From Arenibacter certesii DSM 19833 (GTDB lineage Bacteria; Bacteroidota; Bacteroidia; Flavobacteriales; Flavobacteriaceae): DNA of 64,000 nucleotides. Location of the stretch: positions 62,001 through 126,000 of the forward strand of contig NZ_AUCB01000004.1 of assembly GCF_000429545.1 (NCBI RefSeq), given 5' to 3'. A model generated the notes under the pieces. The model was not told the origin of the DNA and ran no database searches. It saw only the letters and a list, made by a program, of their open reading frames with translations. Made by a program: the position numbers and the translations under genes. Below are positions 5,635-64,000 of the stretch, one piece after another; within the stretch, counting starts at the first letter, position 1; each line of letters opens with the position of its first letter.

Positions 5635-7962
5635 ATGAAAAAGAAAGTGGGACTATGGTTAAGCTTAATTATGCTTTTGACCATTTTTGGTTGTGCGGAC
5701 GAAGGGAAAACTGTTTTTAAAGAAAGTGATATTAACATCATTCCCCAACCGGATAAAGTACAATTTAAAGAGGGGGCATTTCGATTTACCAAAGATACCC
5801 AATTTGTAGTTCCCTTAGAGTATGCTGAGGTAGCCGAAGTGCTACTCGATAAGTTTAGCAAAGCGGCAGGATGGAATTTAAGGGTCGTTGATACCGAACC
5901 AATTAATAATTATGTGCAATTGGTCTTGGACGACGCCTTGGAAAATGAGGCTTATAACGTGATAATAACAGGTGATAAAGTAGAAGTAACCGCAAATGGA
6001 TATGCTGGCTTTTTATATGGTTTGGAAACCTTAAGACAATTGCTTCCTGTGGCGATAGAAAGTGACAATTTAGTTGTTGATGTAAAATGGGATATTCCTA
6101 CCGTTCAAATTACTGATAGCCCACGTTTTAAATGGCGTGGTTTTATGATGGATGTTTCTAGACACTTCTTTAATAAAGAATATATTTTATCAACAATTGA
6201 TCAATTGGCGCTTTTGAAAATGAATACGCTGCACCTTCATTTGGTAGATGACCAAGGTTGGAGGTTAGAAATCAAAAAATATCCAAAACTTACAGAAGTA
6301 GGCGCATTTAGAGTAGATCAAGAAGATAAACATTGGGATGCTAGACAAACCCCAAAATTGGGTGAGCAAGCTACTTATGGCGGATTTTATACCCAAGAGG
6401 ATATAAAGGAAATTGTAGCATACGCAACGAGCAGAGGAATAAATGTGGTTCCAGAAATAGAAATGCCAGCACATGTTATGAGCGCTATAGCAGCCTATCC
6501 GGAATTATCCTGTTTACAGAACCCTATCATGGTACCATCTGGTGGGGTTTGGCCAATAACAGAAATTTATTGCGCAGGGAAAGAGTCAACTTTCGAGTTC
6601 TTGGAAAATGTATTGATAGAGGTAATGGATTTGTTCCCTTCACAATATATACATGTTGGGGGAGATGAAGCAACCAAAACTAATTGGGAAAAATGCCCAG
6701 ATTGTAGTAAGAGGGTAAAAGTAGAAGGCTTGGCCAACGTAGAGGAGCTACAAAGTTATTTTATAAAAAGAATGGAGCGTTTTATCAGCTCCAAGGGTAG
6801 AACCCTAATTGGATGGGATGAAATATTGGAAGGTGGTTTGGCACCTGGTGCTACGGTTATGAGCTGGCGCGGCTTTGAGGGGGGATTGGAAGCCTCTGCA
6901 TCGGGACACGATGTGGTGATGTCGCCAACGTCACACGCTTATTTTGATTATTATCAAGGCAATCAAGATACTGAACCTATGGCTTGGGGCGGGCATACCC
7001 CTTTGAGTAAGGTGTATGAATTTGACCCTGTGGTTGAAGGTATGACGCCAAAACAGGAAAATCACGTTTTGGGCGGACAAGCAAACTTGTGGACCGAATT
7101 TGTACCTACTGTTGCGCAAGCACAATATATGACCTATCCTCGTTTGGCGGCCTTGGCTGAGTCGGTTTGGAGCACTAAGGAAAATAAGAATTGGTCCGAC
7201 TTCTCCGCTAGGATCGATGCCCTGTTTAATAGATACGATGCTATGGGGATTAATTACGCTAAAAGTGCCTACCAAGTAACTACAGATGTGTCTGTTGATC
7301 CGGAAAACGGTACAATTTCTATCGCACTTAAAAATGAATTTCCAAATGCAGATATACGTTATGCTTTGGATGGGAATGATATTACGACGAGCTCTCAACA
7401 ATATGATAGCCCAATTGAAATAGCTAAAACTACTGAAATAAGAGCGCAAGTTTTTAAGGATGAGGAGCCTGTAGGGGTACAATTAGAAAAAACGATCAAC
7501 TTTCATAAAGCAGCGGGAAAACCGGTAACTTATTTAAATAAATATCACGATAATTACCAAGGAGCAAAGGAAATTGGGATGGTGAACGTGGTGCGGGGTT
7601 CTAAAAATTTTCACGACGGACAGTGGCAAGGCTGGTTAGGTGATAATATGATATTGGTGATCGATATGGAAACGCCAACCGAAATAGAGGAAATTAGTGT
7701 TGGATCTTTGGAAAATCAAGGTTCTGGGATCTATTTTCCTGTGGAAATAAATGTTTTACTGTCCGATGATGGAAAAACCTATAAAAAGGAAGGCACATTA
7801 AAACGGGATTTCGCTGCAAACATTAAATCCGAACTAAAAGATTTTGTCATCGACCTTAATAAGCAAACCACTAGATTTGTAAAGGTTGAAGCTATCAATT
7901 TGGGCACGCCTCCTACTGGCGGAGGATCTTGGATGTTTATTGATGAGATTATCATGCAGTAG
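5635..7962 (+). CDS. GH20 beta-N-acetylhexosaminidase, lipoprotein
   Basis: The 775-residue protein starts with a lipoprotein signal (LLTIFGC, Cys20). Residues about 35-155 form the GH20b-type N-terminal domain, and the catalytic (beta/alpha)8 barrel starts near RFKWRGFMMDVSRHFF. The GH20 catalytic pair is seen as Asp344-Glu345 in HVGGDEA. Later motifs such as VMSWRGFEGG and LGGQANLWTE are also typical. The C-terminal part contains a chitobiase-type C-terminal stretch and a discoidin (F5/8C-like) segment around residues 630-775. It should remove terminal beta-linked GlcNAc or GalNAc from glycans at the cell surface or in the periplasm. Together with the GH92 gene that follows it suggests degradation of N-glycan-type substrates. 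Confidence 0.95.
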   Translation: MKKKVGLWLSLIMLLTIFGCADEGKTVFKESDINIIPQPDKVQFKEGAFRFTKDTQFVVPLEYAEVAEVLLDKFSKAAGWNLRVVDTEPINNYVQLVLDDALENEAYNVIITGDKVEVTANGYAGFLYGLETLRQLLPVAIESDNLVVDVKWDIPTVQITDSPRFKWRGFMMDVSRHFFNKEYILSTIDQLALLKMNTLHLHLVDDQGWRLEIKKYPKLTEVGAFRVDQEDKHWDARQTPKLGEQATYGGFYTQEDIKEIVAYATSRGINVVPEIEMPAHVMSAIAAYPELSCLQNPIMVPSGGVWPITEIYCAGKESTFEFLENVLIEVMDLFPSQYIHVGGDEATKTNWEKCPDCSKRVKVEGLANVEELQSYFIKRMERFISSKGRTLIGWDEILEGGLAPGATVMSWRGFEGGLEASASGHDVVMSPTSHAYFDYYQGNQDTEPMAWGGHTPLSKVYEFDPVVEGMTPKQENHVLGGQANLWTEFVPTVAQAQYMTYPRLAALAESVWSTKENKNWSDFSARIDALFNRYDAMGINYAKSAYQVTTDVSVDPENGTISIALKNEFPNADIRYALDGNDITTSSQQYDSPIEIAKTTEIRAQVFKDEEPVGVQLEKTINFHKAAGKPVTYLNKYHDNYQGAKEIGMVNVVRGSKNFHDGQWQGWLGDNMILVIDMETPTEIEEISVGSLENQGSGIYFPVEINVLLSDDGKTYKKEGTLKRDFAANIKSELKDFVIDLNKQTTRFVKVEAINLGTPPTGGGSWMFIDEIIMQ

Positions 7963-8021
7963 TTGAGCTTTAGAACATAGTAGCCTTCTCAAAAAAATAT
8001 AATAAAAATCACATTTAAGTA

Positions 8022-10274
8022 ATGCAGTATAAATTTATTTTATGGGTTGTTTTATTTTCAACTCAACTATTTTCTCAAGACAAACCAGTAGATTATGTGA
8101 ATCCATTTATTGGGACCTCCAATTATGGAACTACTAATCCTGGGCCTATTGCAATGAGGGGGATGGTGAGTGTATCTCCCTTTAATGTAGCCGGACCAGA
8201 AAACGTGCCACTAGAAAAAGACAGTAGGTGGTTATCTACTCCCTATGTGCATGAGAATACCTTTTTAACTGGCTTTAGCCATGTTAATTTAAGTGGTGTT
8301 GGGTGCCCAGAACTAGGGGTAATATTGGCCATGCCCACCACGGGAGACTTGGAAGTGGATCATTTAAAATATGGTTCATCCTACTCTCAAGAAAAAGCCA
8401 AGGTGGGGTATTATTCCAATACATTGGATAAATACGCAATAGGTGTGGAAGCAACTGCTACAACAAGGGTTGGGGTAAGTAAATATTCTTTTCCTGAAGG
8501 TGATGCTAACATATTAATTAACCTTGGGCTAGGACTTACCAATGAGCAGGGTGCCTCTGTAAAGGTAGTTTCCCCTACCGAAATTGAAGGAGTGCGGAGT
8601 GTAGGTTCCTTCTGTTATTACAAACCGGAGGAAGCATATCCTGTATATTTTGTAGCTCGTTTCTCTAAACCTGCAGCCGCTTTTGGTGTGTGGAAGAAGC
8701 CTACCACCTATAAAGGAGTAGAAGCAGAATGGATGGGGTACAATGGCCAGTCAAGAATAATGAAGGGGTATGCTAAGGAAGTCGTAGGGGATAGTATAGG
8801 AGCGTATATGCGCTACAATTTTAAGGTCCCTACCGAAGTGGAGATGAAAATTGGAGTGTCTTATGTGAGTATCGAGAATGCACGTGAAAATCTGGAAAAG
8901 GAAACCAGTACTAGGAGCTTTGATCGGATTTTAGAGGAAGCTCAGAATATTTGGAACACACACTTGTCGAAAATTGAAGTTGAAGGGGGAACCAAGGACG
9001 ACAAGGTGAATTTCTATACCGCTTTGTACCATACCTTAATTCACCCAAATACCTTGAATGATTATAATGGGGAATATCCCAAAATGAAAACTAGGGAAAC
9101 CTTAAAAACGGAAGATACACGCTATACGGTGTTTTCGTTATGGGATACCTATAGAAACCTGCATCAGTTGATGAGTTTGGTATATCCGGACCAGCAGTCG
9201 GATATGATAAAAAGTATGTTGCAGATCTACGATGAAAGTGGATGGTTGCCAAAGTGGGAGCTAAATGCTACGGAAACCACTACTATGGTGGGAGATCCTG
9301 CAGGAATTGTTATTGCAGATACCTATTTAAGAGGAATTACGGATTTTGATGTGGAAAAGGCTTATGGCGCAATGGTAAAAAGTGCAGATCAACTAGAAGA
9401 CAATCCGCTCCGGCCTGGCTTGAAGGATTATTTAGAAAAAGGATATTTAACTACCAAAACCACAAATAGCGGATCTGTTTCTAGCACACAAGAATATAAT
9501 ATTTCCGACTATGCCATCGCTCAACTGGCTAAAACGCTTGGGAAAAAATCAGACTATAAGCGATTTTCAAAACGATCCATATCCTATAGGGATTTATTGG
9601 ATAAGGAGATTAACCTCCTACGCCCAAAAAATGATGATGGTAGTTGGTTAAGCCCGTATAACCCTGAAACAGGAGCCAATTTTGAAATGAATTTAGGCTT
9701 TATTGAAGGGAATGCCTGGCAATATACTTTTATGGTGACTCATGATGTTAAGGGGTTGATGAAGCTTATGGGAGGAGAAAAACCATTTGTAGACAGGTTG
9801 CAGGATGTTTTTGATAAGGGGCAATTTGATATGGCCAATGAACCCGATATAGCCTACCCATACCTATTCAACTATGTGCCGGGAGAAGAAAGGCGTACTC
9901 AAGAAACGGTCGCTAATTTACTGAATTCCTATTTTAACAATAGTCCGGACGGGCTACCAGGGAATGATGATACGGGAACTATGTCTGCTTGGGCCGTGTT
10001 TTCTATGATGGGTATTTATCCTGTGAGCCCAGCTAATACCAATTATGCTATTACGGCTCCCAAATTTAAGAAGGTAACCATTCACTTGGATCCCAATTAT
10101 TACGGTCAGGAGAAACTGGTGATTACCTCCAATGCCTCATCTGAAAATAGGTTTATTAAGGGAGTAACAGTGAGTGGAAAACCTCATTTGAGCTATTTTA
10201 TTGATCATCAGGAGTTAGTGAACGCGAAGACTATAGATTTCCTATTGGAGCAAAAAGAATTGGAGAGCAAATAA
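8022..10274 (+). CDS. GH92 alpha-mannosidase
   Basis: A 750-residue secreted protein with a signal peptide ending near STQLFSQ. The N-terminal motif DYVNPFIGTSNYGTTNPGP and the segment GFSHVNLSGVGCPELG are diagnostic of family GH92. The catalytic (alpha/alpha)6 region carries SLWDTYRN and, near the C-terminus, GNDDTGTMSAWAVFSMMG. GH92 enzymes are calcium-dependent exo-alpha-mannosidases, most often alpha-1,2, that trim mannans or N-glycans; the exact linkage cannot be read from the sequence. It lies 59 nt after the GH20 gene and is followed by a strong hairpin terminator, so it probably ends the CBM9-GH20-GH92 transcription unit. Confidence 0.95.
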   Translation: MQYKFILWVVLFSTQLFSQDKPVDYVNPFIGTSNYGTTNPGPIAMRGMVSVSPFNVAGPENVPLEKDSRWLSTPYVHENTFLTGFSHVNLSGVGCPELGVILAMPTTGDLEVDHLKYGSSYSQEKAKVGYYSNTLDKYAIGVEATATTRVGVSKYSFPEGDANILINLGLGLTNEQGASVKVVSPTEIEGVRSVGSFCYYKPEEAYPVYFVARFSKPAAAFGVWKKPTTYKGVEAEWMGYNGQSRIMKGYAKEVVGDSIGAYMRYNFKVPTEVEMKIGVSYVSIENARENLEKETSTRSFDRILEEAQNIWNTHLSKIEVEGGTKDDKVNFYTALYHTLIHPNTLNDYNGEYPKMKTRETLKTEDTRYTVFSLWDTYRNLHQLMSLVYPDQQSDMIKSMLQIYDESGWLPKWELNATETTTMVGDPAGIVIADTYLRGITDFDVEKAYGAMVKSADQLEDNPLRPGLKDYLEKGYLTTKTTNSGSVSSTQEYNISDYAIAQLAKTLGKKSDYKRFSKRSISYRDLLDKEINLLRPKNDDGSWLSPYNPETGANFEMNLGFIEGNAWQYTFMVTHDVKGLMKLMGGEKPFVDRLQDVFDKGQFDMANEPDIAYPYLFNYVPGEERRTQETVANLLNSYFNNSPDGLPGNDDTGTMSAWAVFSMMGIYPVSPANTNYAITAPKFKKVTIHLDPNYYGQEKLVITSNASSENRFIKGVTVSGKPHLSYFIDHQELVNAKTIDFLLEQKELESK

Positions 10275-29507: not shown

Positions 29508-29951
29508 TTAATGCAATAAATAAGACTCAAACTCCGCGGACCATTTGGAGCACCTTCCCACTGCTGGGGTGAGAGTGGCAAAGACATCTAGGCGTCGTAG
29601 AATATGAGAATCATTTTCGGTTAGTTTCCCTAATTTTAGGGTGACAGGAAGAATTAATATCTCAATTTCCTTACTGACAGTCAATTCCAATTTGGCGAAG
29701 CCCATATATTTATCTTTTCTACCCTGAGTTATAGGAATCACTTTGGTATCTTTCCAATTTGCCATGACCACAGGGACATCTAATGGGCCATGTATATCAT
29801 AAATGATAACATCCAAAATATACGCCATTTCTAATTTAATATCAATTTTATGAAAGGTGATTTTCACCTCTACGTCAATGTCGCTCTCATTATCGCCTAC
29901 ATCTATATATTCAGGGACATTTTTGATTTCAACCGAATTTATTTGTGCCAT
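29508..29951 (-). CDS. Conserved-looking hypothetical protein, 147 aa
   Basis: No family is recognised. The 147-residue product starts MAQINSVEIKNVPEYID and has alternating hydrophobic segments (VEVKITF, YILDVIIYDI, GFAKLELTV, IEILILPVTLKL) that suggest a single beta-sandwich-like domain. No signal peptide, membrane segment or cysteine pair is seen. A clear ATG start, convergent orientation to the SdiA-regulated gene, and uninterrupted length support it as a real gene. The 326 nt upstream (to the putative promoter of the riboswitch) hold nothing I can name. Confidence 0.6.
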   Translation of the reverse strand: MAQINSVEIKNVPEYIDVGDNESDIDVEVKITFHKIDIKLEMAYILDVIIYDIHGPLDVPVVMANWKDTKVIPITQGRKDKYMGFAKLELTVSKEIEILILPVTLKLGKLTENDSHILRRLDVFATLTPAVGRCSKWSAEFESYLLH

Positions 29952-30277
29952 AATCTATGTTGTTAGGTGCTATTGAACAGTGAATGGAACTTGGGTTTTG
30001 TATTTCTTTGGTCCAATGTTCCGATAAAAAGATAATTGCCTAGTGAAAAGCCTCTAAATTAAAAACCTGATAGCTTTAATTTAGCTATGATAAACGGAGG
30101 GAAATATAATCACAGCTCTATAAGCAATTTTAATCCCTTGTTAATTAGCGGTGTATTATAAATATACGTTTAACTCTAAAGAAGTTATAGGATTATAAGG
30201 ATTATTTATAGCTAATTCTTTAAAAAAGTATTTGGGTTAACTCAATCGAGGAGCTTAGTTATTGTAAAATTTATGCC

Positions 30278-30285
30278 TACATTTG
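30278..30285 (+). promoter_or_regulatory. Candidate -7 element (TAnnTTTG) upstream of the B12 riboswitch
   Basis: TACATTTG matches the Bacteroidota -7 consensus and lies about 35-40 nt before the riboswitch, where a promoter would be expected. A TTG occurs 13 nt upstream, closer than the usual -33 spacing. Confidence 0.4.
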
Positions 30286-30317
30286 GCCCTTGTAAGTTCT
30301 TAATATTCTTCATCAAC

Positions 30318-30482
30318 CGGAAAAGGTTTTACTTAATTGTAAGTAATAGGGAATCGTGTGAAAATCACGGACTGTCGCGCAACTGTAAGTAATACACCAA
30401 AAGCTTTCATCCAAGAGAATCCACTGCATTAGCGGGAAGGACGATGAAAGTTGTTACAAGTCAGGAGACCTGCCTATTCCGA
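30318..30482 (+). ncRNA. Cobalamin (adenosylcobalamin-type) riboswitch
   Basis: The core elements are all present in order. These are AATAGGGAAT, GTGTGAAAATCAC with a CGGACTG arm, the conserved CGCGCAACTGTAAGT segment, a B12-box-like CCACTG followed by GCGGGAAGG, and the closing AAGTCAGGAGACCTGCC. This matches the cobalamin riboswitch class by pattern. There is no btuB, cob or transport gene next to it. The first plus-strand gene downstream is nrdB at 31038, followed by nrdA, so it most likely represses the class I ribonucleotide reductase when B12 is present. A similar link is known for nrdABS in Streptomyces. An expression platform was not identified in the 555-nt leader. Confidence 0.9.
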
Positions 30483-31037
30483 ATTGACAATGCTTTCGCG
30501 ATTGAAGTTTTAGTCGAATGGGAACGTATTTAACAAGGTTACTATCTTATAATTACGAAGGTGGCCCTTTGTTTTTCTAACGTCACTTATTTCATCAAAT
30601 TTCTTATCCAATAAAGTTATTGCGAAGTTCCGAAAAAAGAGCTTTTAACGAAGTGTTATTTTAGTTTAAATAGTTAAAAGAAGCGGCTATAAAATAATTT
30701 TGCTATCCGCGAATTGGTAGTAAAAGTTGAAAAAAAAAGAATAAATCAGATTAATGGATTAAGTCCATTCTAAGGGAAAAAAAGTAAGGTGTTTTGCCTG
30801 ATCCTAAAGAGTTTCATGCAAAAGGTCAGCTATTCTTCTTGTAGGAGAGATGCATTTTTAACAAGGATAGAAGACGTATTTATAGTCGCATCAGTTGTGA
30901 GCGTTTATAATATACCCACTAAATTCAAGATGTTGATAACCCTGTGGACAATCAAATAACAGAATATATAAACGTAAGCAATAAAGGGAGACCTTTATAG
31001 TCTAACATGATTTTAGATTTTTAAATATTTAATACAC
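30483..31037 (+). other. Long 5' leader between riboswitch and nrdB
   Basis: This 555-nt stretch contains no gene I can support. It holds two very short ATG frames (about 20 codons from 30519 and about 46 codons from 30817) without convincing features, and a DnaA-box-like TGTGGACAA near 30942. It presumably carries the riboswitch expression platform and possibly a second promoter for nrdBA. Confidence 0.4.
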
Positions 31038-32312
31038 ATGGAAATTACCTCAATTGTAAAAAGAGGCTTTGCGACAGAATCGTTTGATTTAAAGAAGATT
31101 AGCAATGCCACATTAAAAGCTATGACAGCTGTAAAGCATGGAGATGCTGTAGATGCAGAACGCATAACCACTAAAGTACATGCTTTTCTTTTAGAGCGAA
31201 AAGAGCAGGATAAGGATTATATACCCACAGTTGAGGAGGTGCAAGATCTTGTTGAAACGAAACTAATGGAAAATGGTTTCTTTGATGTGGCCAAAGCGTA
31301 TATTCTATATAGGAACGAACAAGCAAAAAAGCGTAAGAGCAATATATTTGAGAAGCGCATCAATTTAAAACCCTACGAATATCCGGATCTTTATGAATAT
31401 GTTCCGGCAATTAGGCATTCCTATTGGATCCATAGCGAATTTAATTTTACAAGTGATATTCAAGATTTTAAGGCCTTGCTTTCCGATACAGAGCGTAGTG
31501 CAATAAAAAACACCATGTTGGCAATTTCTCAGATAGAAGTAGCTGTGAAAAGCTTTTGGGGTGATATTTACCATAGGATGCCTAAGCCAGAAATTGGTTC
31601 TGTGGGGGCAACATTTGCGGAAAGTGAGGTGCGGCACCATGATGCATATTCACATTTACTAGAGATTTTAGGTTTAAACGAAGAGTTTAAAAATCTAAAA
31701 AAGAAACCTGCAATCATGAAGCGAGTGCAGTATCTCGAGTCCGCACTTAAAAACGCAAAAAGTGAGGATAATAAGGAATATGCCGAATCTGTTTTACTTT
31801 TTTCTCTGTTTATAGAACATGTTTCGCTATTCTCCCAGTTTCTAATTATCATGGCCTTCAATAAGCATAAAAACATGTTGAAAGGGATATCCAATGTAGT
31901 TGAAGCTACTTCTAAAGAAGAGCAGATCCATGGGGATTTTGGTATTGATATTATAAAAATCATTAAGGCTGAGAACCCAGATTGGTTCGATGAAGATTTC
32001 CAACTAATGATTCAACACATGTGTAGTGAGTCTTTTGAGGCAGAGAGCAAGATTGTAGATTGGATCTTTGAGGAAGGAGAATTAGATTTTTTACCGAAAA
32101 AAGTGGTAAACGAATTTATTAAGGACCGATTTAATAGATCGCTAGAAAGTATCGGGATTAATAAAATATTTGAAATAGATCAAACCCTTTTAGCAGAGAC
32201 AGAGTGGTTTGATGATGAAATTATAGGCACCAAACACGGAGATTTCTTCGTAAAGAGATCTATAAATTATAGCAAAAGAACCCAAAGTATAACCAGTGAT
32301 GACCTTTTTTAA
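31038..32312 (+). CDS. nrdB: Class I ribonucleotide reductase radical-generating subunit with N-terminal ATP-cone
   Basis: The 424-residue protein joins an ATP-cone (about residues 1-95, starting ITSIVKRGFATESFDLKKI) to a ferritin-like NrdB domain. Dimetal ligands are visible: Glu167, Glu197-x-x-His200 in SEVRHHDAYSHL, Glu260 in LFIEHVSLF, and Glu295-x-x-His298 in KEEQIHGDFG. Tyr204 occupies the usual radical-tyrosine position. ATP-cones on NrdB are known from flavobacteria such as Leeuwenhoekiella and control activity through small-subunit oligomerisation. With nrdA it reduces ribonucleotides for DNA synthesis. It is preceded by a cobalamin riboswitch and followed after one nucleotide by nrdA. 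The metal (Fe or Mn) cannot be decided from sequence alone. Confidence 0.95.
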   Translation: MEITSIVKRGFATESFDLKKISNATLKAMTAVKHGDAVDAERITTKVHAFLLERKEQDKDYIPTVEEVQDLVETKLMENGFFDVAKAYILYRNEQAKKRKSNIFEKRINLKPYEYPDLYEYVPAIRHSYWIHSEFNFTSDIQDFKALLSDTERSAIKNTMLAISQIEVAVKSFWGDIYHRMPKPEIGSVGATFAESEVRHHDAYSHLLEILGLNEEFKNLKKKPAIMKRVQYLESALKNAKSEDNKEYAESVLLFSLFIEHVSLFSQFLIIMAFNKHKNMLKGISNVVEATSKEEQIHGDFGIDIIKIIKAENPDWFDEDFQLMIQHMCSESFEAESKIVDWIFEEGELDFLPKKVVNEFIKDRFNRSLESIGINKIFEIDQTLLAETEWFDDEIIGTKHGDFFVKRSINYSKRTQSITSDDLF

Positions 32313-32313
32313 A

Positions 32314-34101
32314 ATGAACGACAATAAATTAACTTTAGATCCCGAAGTCCAGAACAATAATGAGGCAGATTTGCTTGTAGATTCAAGAAAAGAAGCGCTT
32401 GGGAAGAACAAGCAAAACGCGAGTAAAAGCTTTGAGTGGTTAACGGAGCACAGCAGAAATTTCTTATCCATGGGCTATTTGTCTAATGGAATGAGTGCTG
32501 AAGAGCGAATTCGTGAAATTGCGGATAGAGCAGAAGAGATACTTCAGATTCCTGGATTCTCCGATAAATTTTACGGATATATGTCTGAAGGTTTTTATTC
32601 ATTAGCTTCTCCGGTGTGGTCAAATTTTGGGAAGAAAAGAGGATTGCCTATAAGTTGTTTTGGTTCTCATATAGACGATGATATGGGGAATATATTGTAT
32701 ACCCAATCGGAAGTGGGGATGATGTCCAAGCTAGGAGGGGGTACTTCTGGATATTTTGGCAAGATCCGTCATCGTGGTGCAGAAGTTAAAAATAATGGTC
32801 AGGCATCCGGGGCCGTTCATATTATGCAGCTTTTTGAATCTATGGTAGACGTAGTGAGCCAAGGATCTGTAAGACGTGGTCGTTTTTCACCCTACTTGCC
32901 AGTAGAGCATCCAGATATCATGGAGTTTTTGGAAATCGGTACAGAAGGAAACCCTATCCAAGAGCTTACTCATGGAGTTACTGTAACCGATAAATGGATG
33001 CAAGAGATGATAGATGGAGATACGGATAAGAGAACCATTTGGGCAAAAGTATTGCAGAGAAGAGGAGAAATGGGGTATCCTTATATTTTCTTCAAAGACC
33101 ATGCTAATAATGGAGCAGCAGATGTATATCGAAATGAAAACCATACGATCTATGCAAGTAATCTGTGCACGGAAATTATGTTGCCTTCTAATGACGAGTG
33201 GTCGTTTGTATGTGTGCTGTCTTCGGTGAACTTATTGCACTATGATAAATGGAAAGATACCGATGCTGTTGAAACGATGGTTTATTTTCTGGATGCAGTA
33301 ATTACAGAATTTATAGATAAATTAGAAGCCTTTAGAGATTCCGAAGAAAGAGAAGATAGGCAAACATTCCTTTTTATGGAGCGTGCCTATAATTTTGCAA
33401 AGGAAAATAGGGCTTTAGGCCTAGGGGTATTGGGATGGCATTCATTGTTGCAGTCTAAAATGCTGCCATTTAACAGTCAGGAAGCTTATAACCTAAATAG
33501 TGAGATCTTTAAGCTAGTTAAGGAAAAATCGTATGCAGCTTCAGGTGAATTGGCTGTTAAATTTGGGGAGCCAAAAGTACTTAAGGGATATGGTAGACGT
33601 AATGCTACTTTAAATGCTATAGCGCCAACAACGTCGTCTGCGTTTATTCTTGGACAGGTCTCTCAAGGGATAGAACCTATTTGGTCCAATATATATGTTA
33701 AGGACATAGCTAAGATAAAAACCACTATAAAAAACACGTATTTAGAAGCTTTGTTGGAAGAGAAAGGGAAAAATACCCAGGAAGTATGGCGCAGTATACG
33801 GGATTTTGATGGCTCTGTTCAGCATTTAGATTTCTTAACAGAGTTGGAAAAAGATGTATTTAAAACGTATTCCGAAATTGATCAAATGGATATAATATAC
33901 CAAGCGGCCAATCGTCAGAACCATATTGACCAAGGTCAGTCGGTGAACATTATTGTTCACCCGGATATGCCCGTTAAGGATATTAATAAAATTCATGTTA
34001 CAGCGTGGAAATTAGGTCTAAAATCGCTGTATTATCAGCATAGTATGAATGCCGCCCAGAAATTTAGGCAGAAAAAGGATTGTGCAAGTTGTGAGGCATA
34101 A
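32314..34101 (+). CDS. nrdA: Class I ribonucleotide reductase catalytic subunit without ATP-cone
   Basis: The catalytic subunit is 595 residues from the ATG at 32314; in-frame ATG (32299) and GTG (32296) codons overlap the end of nrdB and are alternatives. Active-site features include the first redox Cys in LPISCFGSH, the NLCTEIMLPS motif with the thiyl-radical Cys and catalytic Glu, and the second redox Cys in FVCVLSSVNL. The C-terminal shuttle pair is DCASCEA. It lacks the N-terminal ATP-cone present in longer NrdA proteins, which fits the cone being carried by NrdB here. A hairpin terminator follows the gene. Confidence 0.95.
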   Translation: MNDNKLTLDPEVQNNNEADLLVDSRKEALGKNKQNASKSFEWLTEHSRNFLSMGYLSNGMSAEERIREIADRAEEILQIPGFSDKFYGYMSEGFYSLASPVWSNFGKKRGLPISCFGSHIDDDMGNILYTQSEVGMMSKLGGGTSGYFGKIRHRGAEVKNNGQASGAVHIMQLFESMVDVVSQGSVRRGRFSPYLPVEHPDIMEFLEIGTEGNPIQELTHGVTVTDKWMQEMIDGDTDKRTIWAKVLQRRGEMGYPYIFFKDHANNGAADVYRNENHTIYASNLCTEIMLPSNDEWSFVCVLSSVNLLHYDKWKDTDAVETMVYFLDAVITEFIDKLEAFRDSEEREDRQTFLFMERAYNFAKENRALGLGVLGWHSLLQSKMLPFNSQEAYNLNSEIFKLVKEKSYAASGELAVKFGEPKVLKGYGRRNATLNAIAPTTSSAFILGQVSQGIEPIWSNIYVKDIAKIKTTIKNTYLEALLEEKGKNTQEVWRSIRDFDGSVQHLDFLTELEKDVFKTYSEIDQMDIIYQAANRQNHIDQGQSVNIIVHPDMPVKDINKIHVTAWKLGLKSLYYQHSMNAAQKFRQKKDCASCEA

Positions 34102-62629: not shown

Positions 62630-64000
62630 ATGAAAAAAGAGTCCACCTATAAACCTATCAATAAAGTGCGTATTGTTACGGCTGCTTCCTTGTTTGATGG
62701 GCATGATGCGGCAATAAATATGATGCGAAGGATAATCCAATCCACTGGGGTAGAGGTTATTCATTTGGGGCATGATAGGAGTGTGTCAGAAGTTGTAGAC
62801 TGTGCTATTCAAGAAGACGTAAACGCTATTGCAATTACCTCCTATCAAGGCGGACATAATGAGTACTTTAAATTTATGCGCGACCTCCTAATGGAGCATG
62901 GGGCGGGCCATATTAAAATTTTTGGTGGTGGAGGAGGTGTTATCCTCCCAGAAGAAATTAAGGAGTTAATGGAGTACGGAATTACAAGGATTTATGCTCC
63001 TGACGATGGCAGAACTATGGGGCTTCAAGGGATGATTAATGATTTAGTGGAGCAAAGTGATTTTCCTACCCCGGATTTAAGGACTCAGGATCCTATTCAA
63101 TTAAAACAGCTTTTAAAGGAGAAAGATTTCTCAACTATAGCAAGACTAATCAGTCTTGCAGAAAATAGAAATGCCGAATTTAAGAAGCACGCAGCTATAT
63201 TAAACGGGAATGATAAACAGGTTCCTGTTTTGGGAGTTACTGGAACAGGAGGAGCAGGTAAATCTAGTTTGGTAGATGAGCTGGTAAGGCGATTTCTAAT
63301 GGATTTCTCCGATGGGACTATAGGGATAATATCGGTGGATCCTTCTAAAAGGAAAACGGGAGGGGCCCTCTTAGGAGATCGTATTCGGATGAACTCAATC
63401 AATGATCCAAGGGTTTATATGCGTTCTTTGGCAACAAGAGAATCTAACTTAACGCTGTCTAAGCACATAGATGAAGCTGTGAGGGTGCTAAAGGGTGCAA
63501 AGTTTGATCTTATTATTTTGGAAACATCAGGAATTGGACAATCTGATACTGCCATAACAGAGCATAGCGATGTGTCTCTTTATGTAATGACGCCCGAGTT
63601 TGGTGCGGCAACCCAACTGGAGAAAATTGATATGTTGGATTTTGCTGATCTAGTGGCTATTAATAAGTTCGATAAAAGAGGAGCCTTGGATGCAATTAGG
63701 GATGTAAGAAAGCAATTCGTTCGCAACCACGGCCTATGGGAGGCTAAACACGAAGAACTTCCAGTTTTTGGAACTATAGCATCGCAATTTAATGATCCAG
63801 GGATGAATAGATTATACCATTCCATAATGACTACCCTGGCAGAAAAGACAGAAACGTCCTTAAAATCTTCCTTTGTGTTAACAGAGGGGAATGAGGAAAA
63901 GTTGTTTGTTATTCCTCCTGCTAGAACAAGGTATTTGTCGGAAATTGCAGAAAGCAACAGGCAATATGATCTTAATGCTAAGGAACAATCTAACCTGGCA
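62630..64000 (+). CDS. icmF: IcmF-type fused B12-dependent acyl-CoA mutase with GTPase domain, 5' part
   Basis: The first 457 codons are present; the gene runs off the right edge. The N-terminal domain is the cobalamin-binding Rossmann fold, with the base-off ligand His25 in LFDGHDAAI and a loop [12 protein letters not shown] MeaB-like G-protein chaperone domain follows, with the P-loop [10 protein letters not shown] near residue 205, [20 protein letters not shown], and INKFDKRG. This order (B12 domain, G-domain, then a mutase barrel) is that of IcmF, which interconverts isobutyryl- and butyryl-CoA or related acyl-CoAs. Stand-alone methylmalonyl-CoA mutase has a different order. The enzyme shows the organism uses adenosylcobalamin. 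Confidence 0.92.

Follow-up and report, generated by a model that had tools for sequence, protein, structure and literature searches.

The nrdBA operon of Arenibacter certesii DSM 19833, which encodes a class I ribonucleotide reductase (RNR), lies downstream of a cobalamin riboswitch that, judged by its sequence relatives, descends from a metE switch whose own gene has been lost. We propose that the metE switch was kept after the loss of metE and now serves nrdBA, a reading to which we give a probability of roughly 60%. The whole stretch of DNA that was analyzed, 64,000 nucleotides long, is referred to as the window, and the features at nrdBA are collected in Table 1.

Table 1. Features of the nrdBA leader and operon, in window coordinates
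Feature	Position	Strand	Remarks
TACATTTG, candidate Bacteroidota-type −7 element of the riboswitch transcript	30278..30285	+	common to the 4 nrdB-adjacent copies
Cobalamin riboswitch aptamer, RF00174	30307..30491	+	94.0 bits, cmscan
P13-like hairpin, loop CUUUCG	30488..30504	+	TGCTTTCGCG common to 8 aligned live metE leaders
Intrinsic-terminator-like hairpin and U-tract	30555..30572	+	window species only
Relic of metE start; core 30703-30720 = YPRIGS codons	30683..30745	+	start codon lost, in-frame stops
Twin DnaA-box-like repeat, TGTTGATAA-nnn-TGTGGACAA	30931..30951	+	native control region of nrdBA
GACCTTTA, A-nn-TTT core, candidate −7 element of the native nrdBA promoter	30990..30997	+	A and TTT invariant, 82 regions
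nrdB, class I RNR radical subunit with N-terminal ATP-cone (NrdBi type)	31038..32312	+	PF03477 residues 5-96 and PF00268
nrdA, class I RNR catalytic subunit without ATP-cone	32314..34101	+	TIGR02510, 770 bits; PF02867

The entire window was scanned with cmscan, which found a single riboswitch, an RF00174 (Cobalamin) match upstream of nrdB that spanned the full model (1 to 189) with a score of 94.0 bits against a gathering threshold of 31.5 (E = 4e-22). The match, at 30307 to 30491 on the plus strand, bears out an earlier note on this DNA that had placed a cobalamin riboswitch at 30318 to 30482. The core motifs of the aptamer were intact (GGGAA, GCAACTGTAA, CCACTG, and the B12 box AGTCAGGAGACCTGCC), and the RNA is a putative binder of adenosylcobalamin. 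Upstream of the aptamer, TACATTTG was located at a fixed offset, 181 to 182 nt before the B12 box, in all four nrdB-adjacent copies of the riboswitch, and we call it a promoter element on the basis of the Bacteroidota −7 consensus, TAnnTTTG. Downstream, the UUUC of the P13 loop (L13) could pair with a GAAA in L5 to form a kissing loop; by inspection, the pairing includes one G-U pair in genome G009 and is reduced to only three bases in the nrdB-adjacent copy (copy 1) of genome G003.

The end of the aptamer and the nrdB ATG are separated by 546 nt. As the earlier note had stated, nrdB and nrdA were the only plus-strand genes behind the riboswitch, with no further plus-strand open reading frame (ORF) of at least 60 amino acids between the riboswitch and nrdB. 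An unseen small ORF within 30491 to 31038 was considered as the client of the switch and rejected, as the short ATG ORFs after the aptamer were not common to the copies (by eye, the first such ATG aligns with ATA in G009), and the divergent gene at 29508 to 29951 was rejected because it lies on the wrong strand. The ATP-cone type that had been assigned to NrdB was upheld by a PF03477 match to residues 5 to 96, and in NrdA PF02867 was the only domain matched and no ATP-cone was found. The nrdA start in Table 1 is the ATG used by the G003 and G009 ORFs, in place of the GTG at 32296 picked by the ORF caller. Among named records, the NrdB of the window was closest to those of Arenibacter latericius (93%) and A. 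amylolyticus (90%).

Relatives of the leader were retrieved by a DNA search with positions 30250 to 30740 across 397 family genomes, with two candidates scored per genome. Matches were obtained in 106 genomes, including the own genome and G003, and the gene context was read for nine matches in other genera and for a second copy in G003. In eight of these nine best extra-genus relatives among the 106 genomes matched (G273, G444, G394, G161, G272, G160, G047, G144, and G266), the next gene was full-length metE (TIGR01371, 1074 to 1135 bits). Moreover, alignment to the live loci indicated that CTATCCGCGAATTGGTAG, at 30703 to 30720 of the window, is exactly the YPRIGS codons of G273 metE, where metE begins. 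The 18-mer was the sole match in the window at up to three mismatches (0.05 expected); in the relic, GCG stands where the start codon was, with stop codons after it. In the nrdB-adjacent copies, the YPRIGS codons seemed, by eye, less decayed than the rest of the metE relic.

The relic was first placed by eye, and a profile of seven live metE starts recovered the same place independently, with its best position 205 to 208 nt downstream of the B12 box in all five Arenibacter copies. Dinucleotide shuffles equalled the profile score in 0 of 1,000 cases for the window and for both G003 copies, in 28 of 1,000 for G009, and in 232 of 1,000 for G002, such that the G002 relic rests on position. In tblastn against a database of five short sequences, MetE residues 1 to 20 matched behind the second G003 copy (75%, E = 1e-4) and residues 1 to 35 behind the G003 nrdB copy (47.5%, E = 6e-4), and the match of MetE to the window leader was not significant (E = 4.3). 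No further metE was recovered between the relic and nrdB: local alignments of this spacer from the window, G009, and G003 against three live metE genes scored no higher than the best shuffle. Among 80 named family loci, a minus-strand B12 box near nrdB was found in five, all of which scored as RF00174 and four of which had metE behind, and the order switch-metE-nrdB was absent from the examined flanks. Such an inverted, divergent metE switch, as in Muricauda-type loci, was rejected as the origin because its orientation differs. As the relatives stand before metE and a relic of the metE start remains, metE was once co-oriented ahead of nrdBA and is now lost. We conclude from these alignments that the riboswitch descends from a metE switch.

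Retention of the switch was assessed at positions conserved in at least six of seven live metE loci, 102 in the aptamer and 39 in the metE start; L179, near-identical to L178, and L184, with no full-length metE behind it, were omitted. Mismatches amounted to 4/102 in the aptamer versus 17/39 in the metE start for the window (Fisher p = 4e-8), 9/102 versus 19/39 for G009 (p = 6e-7), 8/102 versus 22/39 for G002 (p = 3e-9), and 5/102 versus 12/39 for G003 copy 1 (p = 1e-4), or 4 to 9% versus 31 to 56% overall in four copies that are related and not independent. Live metE loci, each left out in turn, gave no contrast (5 to 17% in the aptamer and 3 to 21% in the metE start). Consistent with retention, identity between the window and the three other species was 88 to 90% in the aptamer, 52 to 65% in the leader, and 27 to 56% in the relic, and the leader was slightly above the 38 to 52% identity of fourfold sites in nrdBA. 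The four species form one clade in a NrdJ tree that was midpoint rooted without an outgroup (support, 0.997).

The second G003 copy, L183 (G003:C1:4156911-4157373, minus strand), comprises a metE riboswitch and metE start that are not beside nrdBA. The gene preceding it reads as sulfite reductase, and no same-strand ORF of at least 60 amino acids was found within 1.5 kb after the aptamer; the copy is nearest to G003's own nrdB copy (80.6%). The copy scored 47 bits, both its B12 box and its −7 element were broken, the nearest sequence to TACATTTG being TTCATTTA, and mismatches in the aptamer (14/102) and metE start (8/39) gave no contrast (p = 0.31). Of the 49 aptamer pairs, 36 to 39 were standard in the four nrdB copies, 35 in the decayed copy, and 35 to 38 in three live metE loci, ranges that overlap such that pair counts alone cannot tell the three groups apart. 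The copy apart from nrdBA decays, and the four copies adjoining nrdBA do not. Since the contrast between aptamer and metE start was found in the four copies and not in the second G003 copy, the switch has outlived its gene under selection. We conclude that, as measured on aligned sequence, promoter element and aptamer have been retained in four species well beyond neutral expectation.

The A. certesii genome (4.99 Mb) contains nrdJ (570 bits), in agreement with the class II enzyme that the earlier note had presumed. No metE match was found in the genome, and metH was present in two ORFs. Two further RF00174 elements were each followed by a long ORF, 76 and 101 nt behind the aptamer, both of which read by sequence as TonB-dependent receptors. 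A B12-dependent IcmF, also claimed for the window, is there at most in part: an ORF from 62630 to 64000 runs off the end of the window, and the methylmalonyl-CoA-mutase match, in a 1158-aa frame, falls further along the contig, beyond the window.

Across the genus, metH, nrdJ, and RF00174 were each above cutoff in 18/18 genomes, and ATP-cone nrdB was found in four (G000, G002, G003, and G009). In each of those four, RF00174 was upstream in the same direction, 531 to 733 nt from the start codon. The other 14 genomes and G003 carry an apparently different class I enzyme with no RF00174 beside it, made up of an nrdB-like match that is 23 to 24% identical over part of its length and an adjoining nrdA-like frame of 816 to 830 aa. 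We note that G003 seemingly has three RNRs: nrdJ, the other class I type (nrdAB, lacking a riboswitch), and the riboswitch-linked ATP-cone nrdBA. metE was above cutoff in 10 of the 18 genomes, was split into two pieces in G010, reached only a 96-bit partial match in G002, and gave no match in G000, G003, G006, G007, G009, and G016; full-length metE was absent from all four species with the switch-nrdBA arrangement. G006, G007, and G016 have also lost metE, and each has only one RF00174, which is unlinked.

Across the family, 2 of the 80 named loci, both from Arenibacter, had a B12 box ahead of nrdB and on its strand, as judged by a pattern that recovers 27 of 28 known RF00174 matches. The sequence available upstream of nrdB measured 297 nt at L025 and 322 nt at L061, both too short to show a switch, and 703 nt at L057. 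Of the 80 loci, cmscan was applied to the 23 from nrdJ-bearing genomes and to the 5 with a divergent box. nrdJ was above cutoff in 23 genomes among the 49 of the 80 named ones that were searched, and RF00174 was present at 2 of these 23 nrdB loci; the other 21 had the same kind of nrdB without RF00174 in the examined flank. Thus, nrdJ accompanies the arrangement but does not predict it, and the earlier note is supported as to the presence of a class II enzyme in the genome. Moreover, metE is missing from the genomes of L072, L077, and L087, and their nrdB loci show no B12 box, which indicates that metE loss often leaves no switch there.

A separate control region lies between the riboswitch and nrdB. 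The sequence TGTTRATAA was found 100 to 113 nt upstream of the nrdB start in 81/81 loci (the window and the 80 named Flavobacteriaceae loci), followed by a second similar box and then by an A-nn-TTT core, invariant at −47 to −42 in 82 upstream regions with G003 added. The core resembles the Bacteroidota −7 element, TAnnTTTG, and the twin boxes resemble DnaA boxes. The twin repeat, about 107 nt upstream of nrdB, is fixed across Flavobacteriaceae, and replication-linked control of the ATP-cone NrdB type of RNR is possible. DnaA boxes are described at the Escherichia coli nrdAB promoter in the available portion of one report (PMC8203912). Arenibacter keeps the block at 30931 to 30997, downstream of the riboswitch, where it is a putative nrdBA promoter. 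With a promoter-like block between switch and nrdB, an effect of B12 that curtails an additional transcript from upstream is more likely than one that silences nrdBA, and the shutoff by B12 envisaged in the earlier note is unlikely to be complete.

We envisage the following hand-over. metE, with its promoter and B12 riboswitch, once stood directly in front of nrdBA; when nearly all of metE was lost, the riboswitch remained about 550 nt ahead of nrdB, with a remnant of the metE start in between. When B12 is missing, a transcript from around 30292 would continue into nrdBA and add to nrdBA mRNA. When B12 is present, the aptamer would fold, the L5-L13 contact would form, and the leader would end early, either Rho dependently or, in the window species, at the hairpin at 30555 to 30572. 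The block at 30931 to 30997 would supply B12-independent expression, such that, with B12 present, nrdBA would depend on this downstream promoter and the B12-dependent NrdJ would supply deoxynucleotides. The metE/metH logic, in which the B12-independent enzyme is off with B12, would in this way have passed to nrdBA/nrdJ through gene loss. A cell with metH and without metE needs B12 or outside methionine, and relief of nrdBA would therefore matter when methionine is available but B12 is short.

The transcript-ending step is the weakest link of this mechanism, as the only terminator-like hairpin is not shared and the folding of the leader is ordinary. When the first 200 nt or so behind the B12 box were searched by a simple rule (stem of at least 5, loop of 3 to 8, and a run of T), no intrinsic terminator was found in the other three nrdB-adjacent copies, the second G003 copy, or seven live metE leaders, and terminator-like sites numbered 2 on both strands versus 1.1 expected in shuffles. 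Leader RNA folded no better than its own shuffles (z = −0.01). Strong conservation stops near 30537, before any gene, and the remaining leader is patchy, with better-kept patches near 30595 to 30665. With no shared terminator and a patchy leader between P13 and nrdB, no common device acting on nrdBA is visible. Also counted against a role in nrdBA expression are the intervening promoter-like block and the frequency both of nrdJ without the switch and of metE loss without a kept switch.

One alternative is that the switch is a mere fossil of metE that has decayed little and controls nothing, with nrdBA run by its own promoter alone. Such a fossil would fit with a dead metE, an intact native nrdBA block, the lack of a terminator common to the copies, and the plain decay of the second G003 copy, and metE may have been lost early or late, once or several times, in the clade. 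A fossil is nonetheless unlikely, as the aptamer is 88 to 90% identical across species whose fourfold sites are 38 to 52% identical, aptamer mismatches are far rarer than those in the adjacent metE start in four of four copies, and the promoter element is invariant. Alternatively, the retained unit might be a B12-controlled RNA in its own right, a trans-acting or antisense small RNA and not a leader of nrdBA. B12-riboswitch-controlled RNAs occur in Listeria, and the end of strong conservation near 30537, ahead of any gene and with a patchy leader beyond, is what such an RNA might leave. The conserved parts, however, are the ordinary promoter element, aptamer, and P13 of metE leaders, no 3′ terminator is common to the copies, and adjacency to nrdBA is kept in 4/4 cases; we consider a small RNA less probable still.

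The earlier note's reading, with Streptomyces nrdABS as its model, amounts to a dedicated nrd riboswitch, of a kind also known from Propionibacterium, by which B12 would turn off the class I RNR so that a class II enzyme takes over. Riboswitch, nrdBA, and nrdJ are indeed all present, and Propionibacterium acnes offers a precedent of an nrdAB riboswitch with early-ending transcripts (available text of PMC3848588). Against it stand the metE descent and metE relic, the 546 nt that separate the switch from nrdB and hold a conserved promoter-like block, the B12 box on the nrdB strand in just 2/80 named loci (both Arenibacter), and the second class I RNR that remains without a riboswitch in G003. 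We regard a dedicated nrd element as the least plausible of these readings, and a metE switch kept and handed over to nrdBA, with control inferred from sequence and gene order, as the one to prefer.

A second candidate for hand-over was found in an Algicola sp. metagenome-assembled genome (MAG). Locus L071 (3826 to 4574, minus strand) has a riboswitch of 95.4 bits and a leader that is like those of four Muricauda-type metE loci up to the start codon, and in the place of metE it encodes a 136-aa 4HBT thioesterase, the ATG of which aligns with the probable ATG of metE. No metE match was found in this one MAG, whose completeness is unstated; in the 10 genomes compared, metE was present in 6 and missing in 4. 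L071 is likely, on alignment, a second metE switch without metE. Whether after metE loss the next gene sometimes inherits the B12 riboswitch, and has done so twice in one family, we regard as evenly balanced; the heirs would be a thioesterase in the Algicola MAG and, in the Arenibacter clade, nrdBA, which like metE encodes the B12-independent counterpart of a B12-dependent enzyme. At another locus, L184 (G144:C26, approximately 6234 to 8580), a 68-bit RF00174 match was followed by an epimerase-like ORF, judged by eye, and a 329-aa ORF like the MetE C-terminal domain. The latter was PRK04326-like but below cutoff, and L184 is perhaps another B12-independent methionine route under B12 control.

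If hand-over occurs, riboswitch regulons can acquire new members through gene loss. The target of a riboswitch is usually taken to be the gene that follows it, which here may be a successor to the gene that the switch originally served. The locus amounts to a natural experiment in which the gene has died, the switch has been kept, and a second copy decays as a control, and, if B12 alters nrdBA expression, it would be a worked example of a regulatory RNA that changed pathway without moving. No published case like the hand-over of a metE switch was found in a search that lay mostly outside the subscription literature and is a weak negative.

The riboswitch shares its aptamer and a P13 with loop CUUUCG with the metE riboswitch of Flavobacteriaceae, and some live metE loci (L177, L182, and L185) also have TAnnTTTG 181 to 184 nt before the box. 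The distance from the B12 box to the metE ATG was 152 to 197 nt in seven live loci versus 205 to 208 nt to the homologous place in the relics. Unlike the live loci, the window lacks metE, and the switch is followed instead by nrdB with a promoter-like block of its own. Algicola L071 is the same in aptamer (95 bits), metE-type leader, and a genome without a metE match, but differs in its heir, the 4HBT thioesterase.

In Streptomyces, a B12 riboswitch precedes nrdABS. In P. acnes, a cobalamin riboswitch precedes nrdAB and transcripts mostly end early (PMC3848588, in the part available). A. certesii is like both in that its genome encodes the B12-dependent NrdJ and has a B12 switch ahead of the class I RNR operon, and it is unlike both in that the switch is metE derived, a metE scrap and a promoter-like block intervene, NrdB carries an ATP-cone, and the host belongs to the Bacteroidota. 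The same domain makeup of NrdB and NrdA is found in the NrdAi/NrdBi of Leeuwenhoekiella blandensis, which has a class II enzyme and a class I enzyme with an ATP-cone on NrdB (PMC5794259); the word "riboswitch" occurs 0 times in the accessible text of that paper, and RF00174 was absent by cmscan from the three Leeuwenhoekiella nrdB loci scanned (L027, L030, and L038). That B12 riboswitches precede B12-independent isozymes was stated for metE (PMC2211319) and tested for MetE/MetH (PMC9600662), as far as the accessible sections of both papers go. B12 switches before B12-independent isozymes, including nrdAB, are thus already known. What sets the A. certesii locus apart is the descent from a metE switch through metE loss, the intervening conserved block, the ATP-cone NrdB enzyme, and the likely recurrence at L071.
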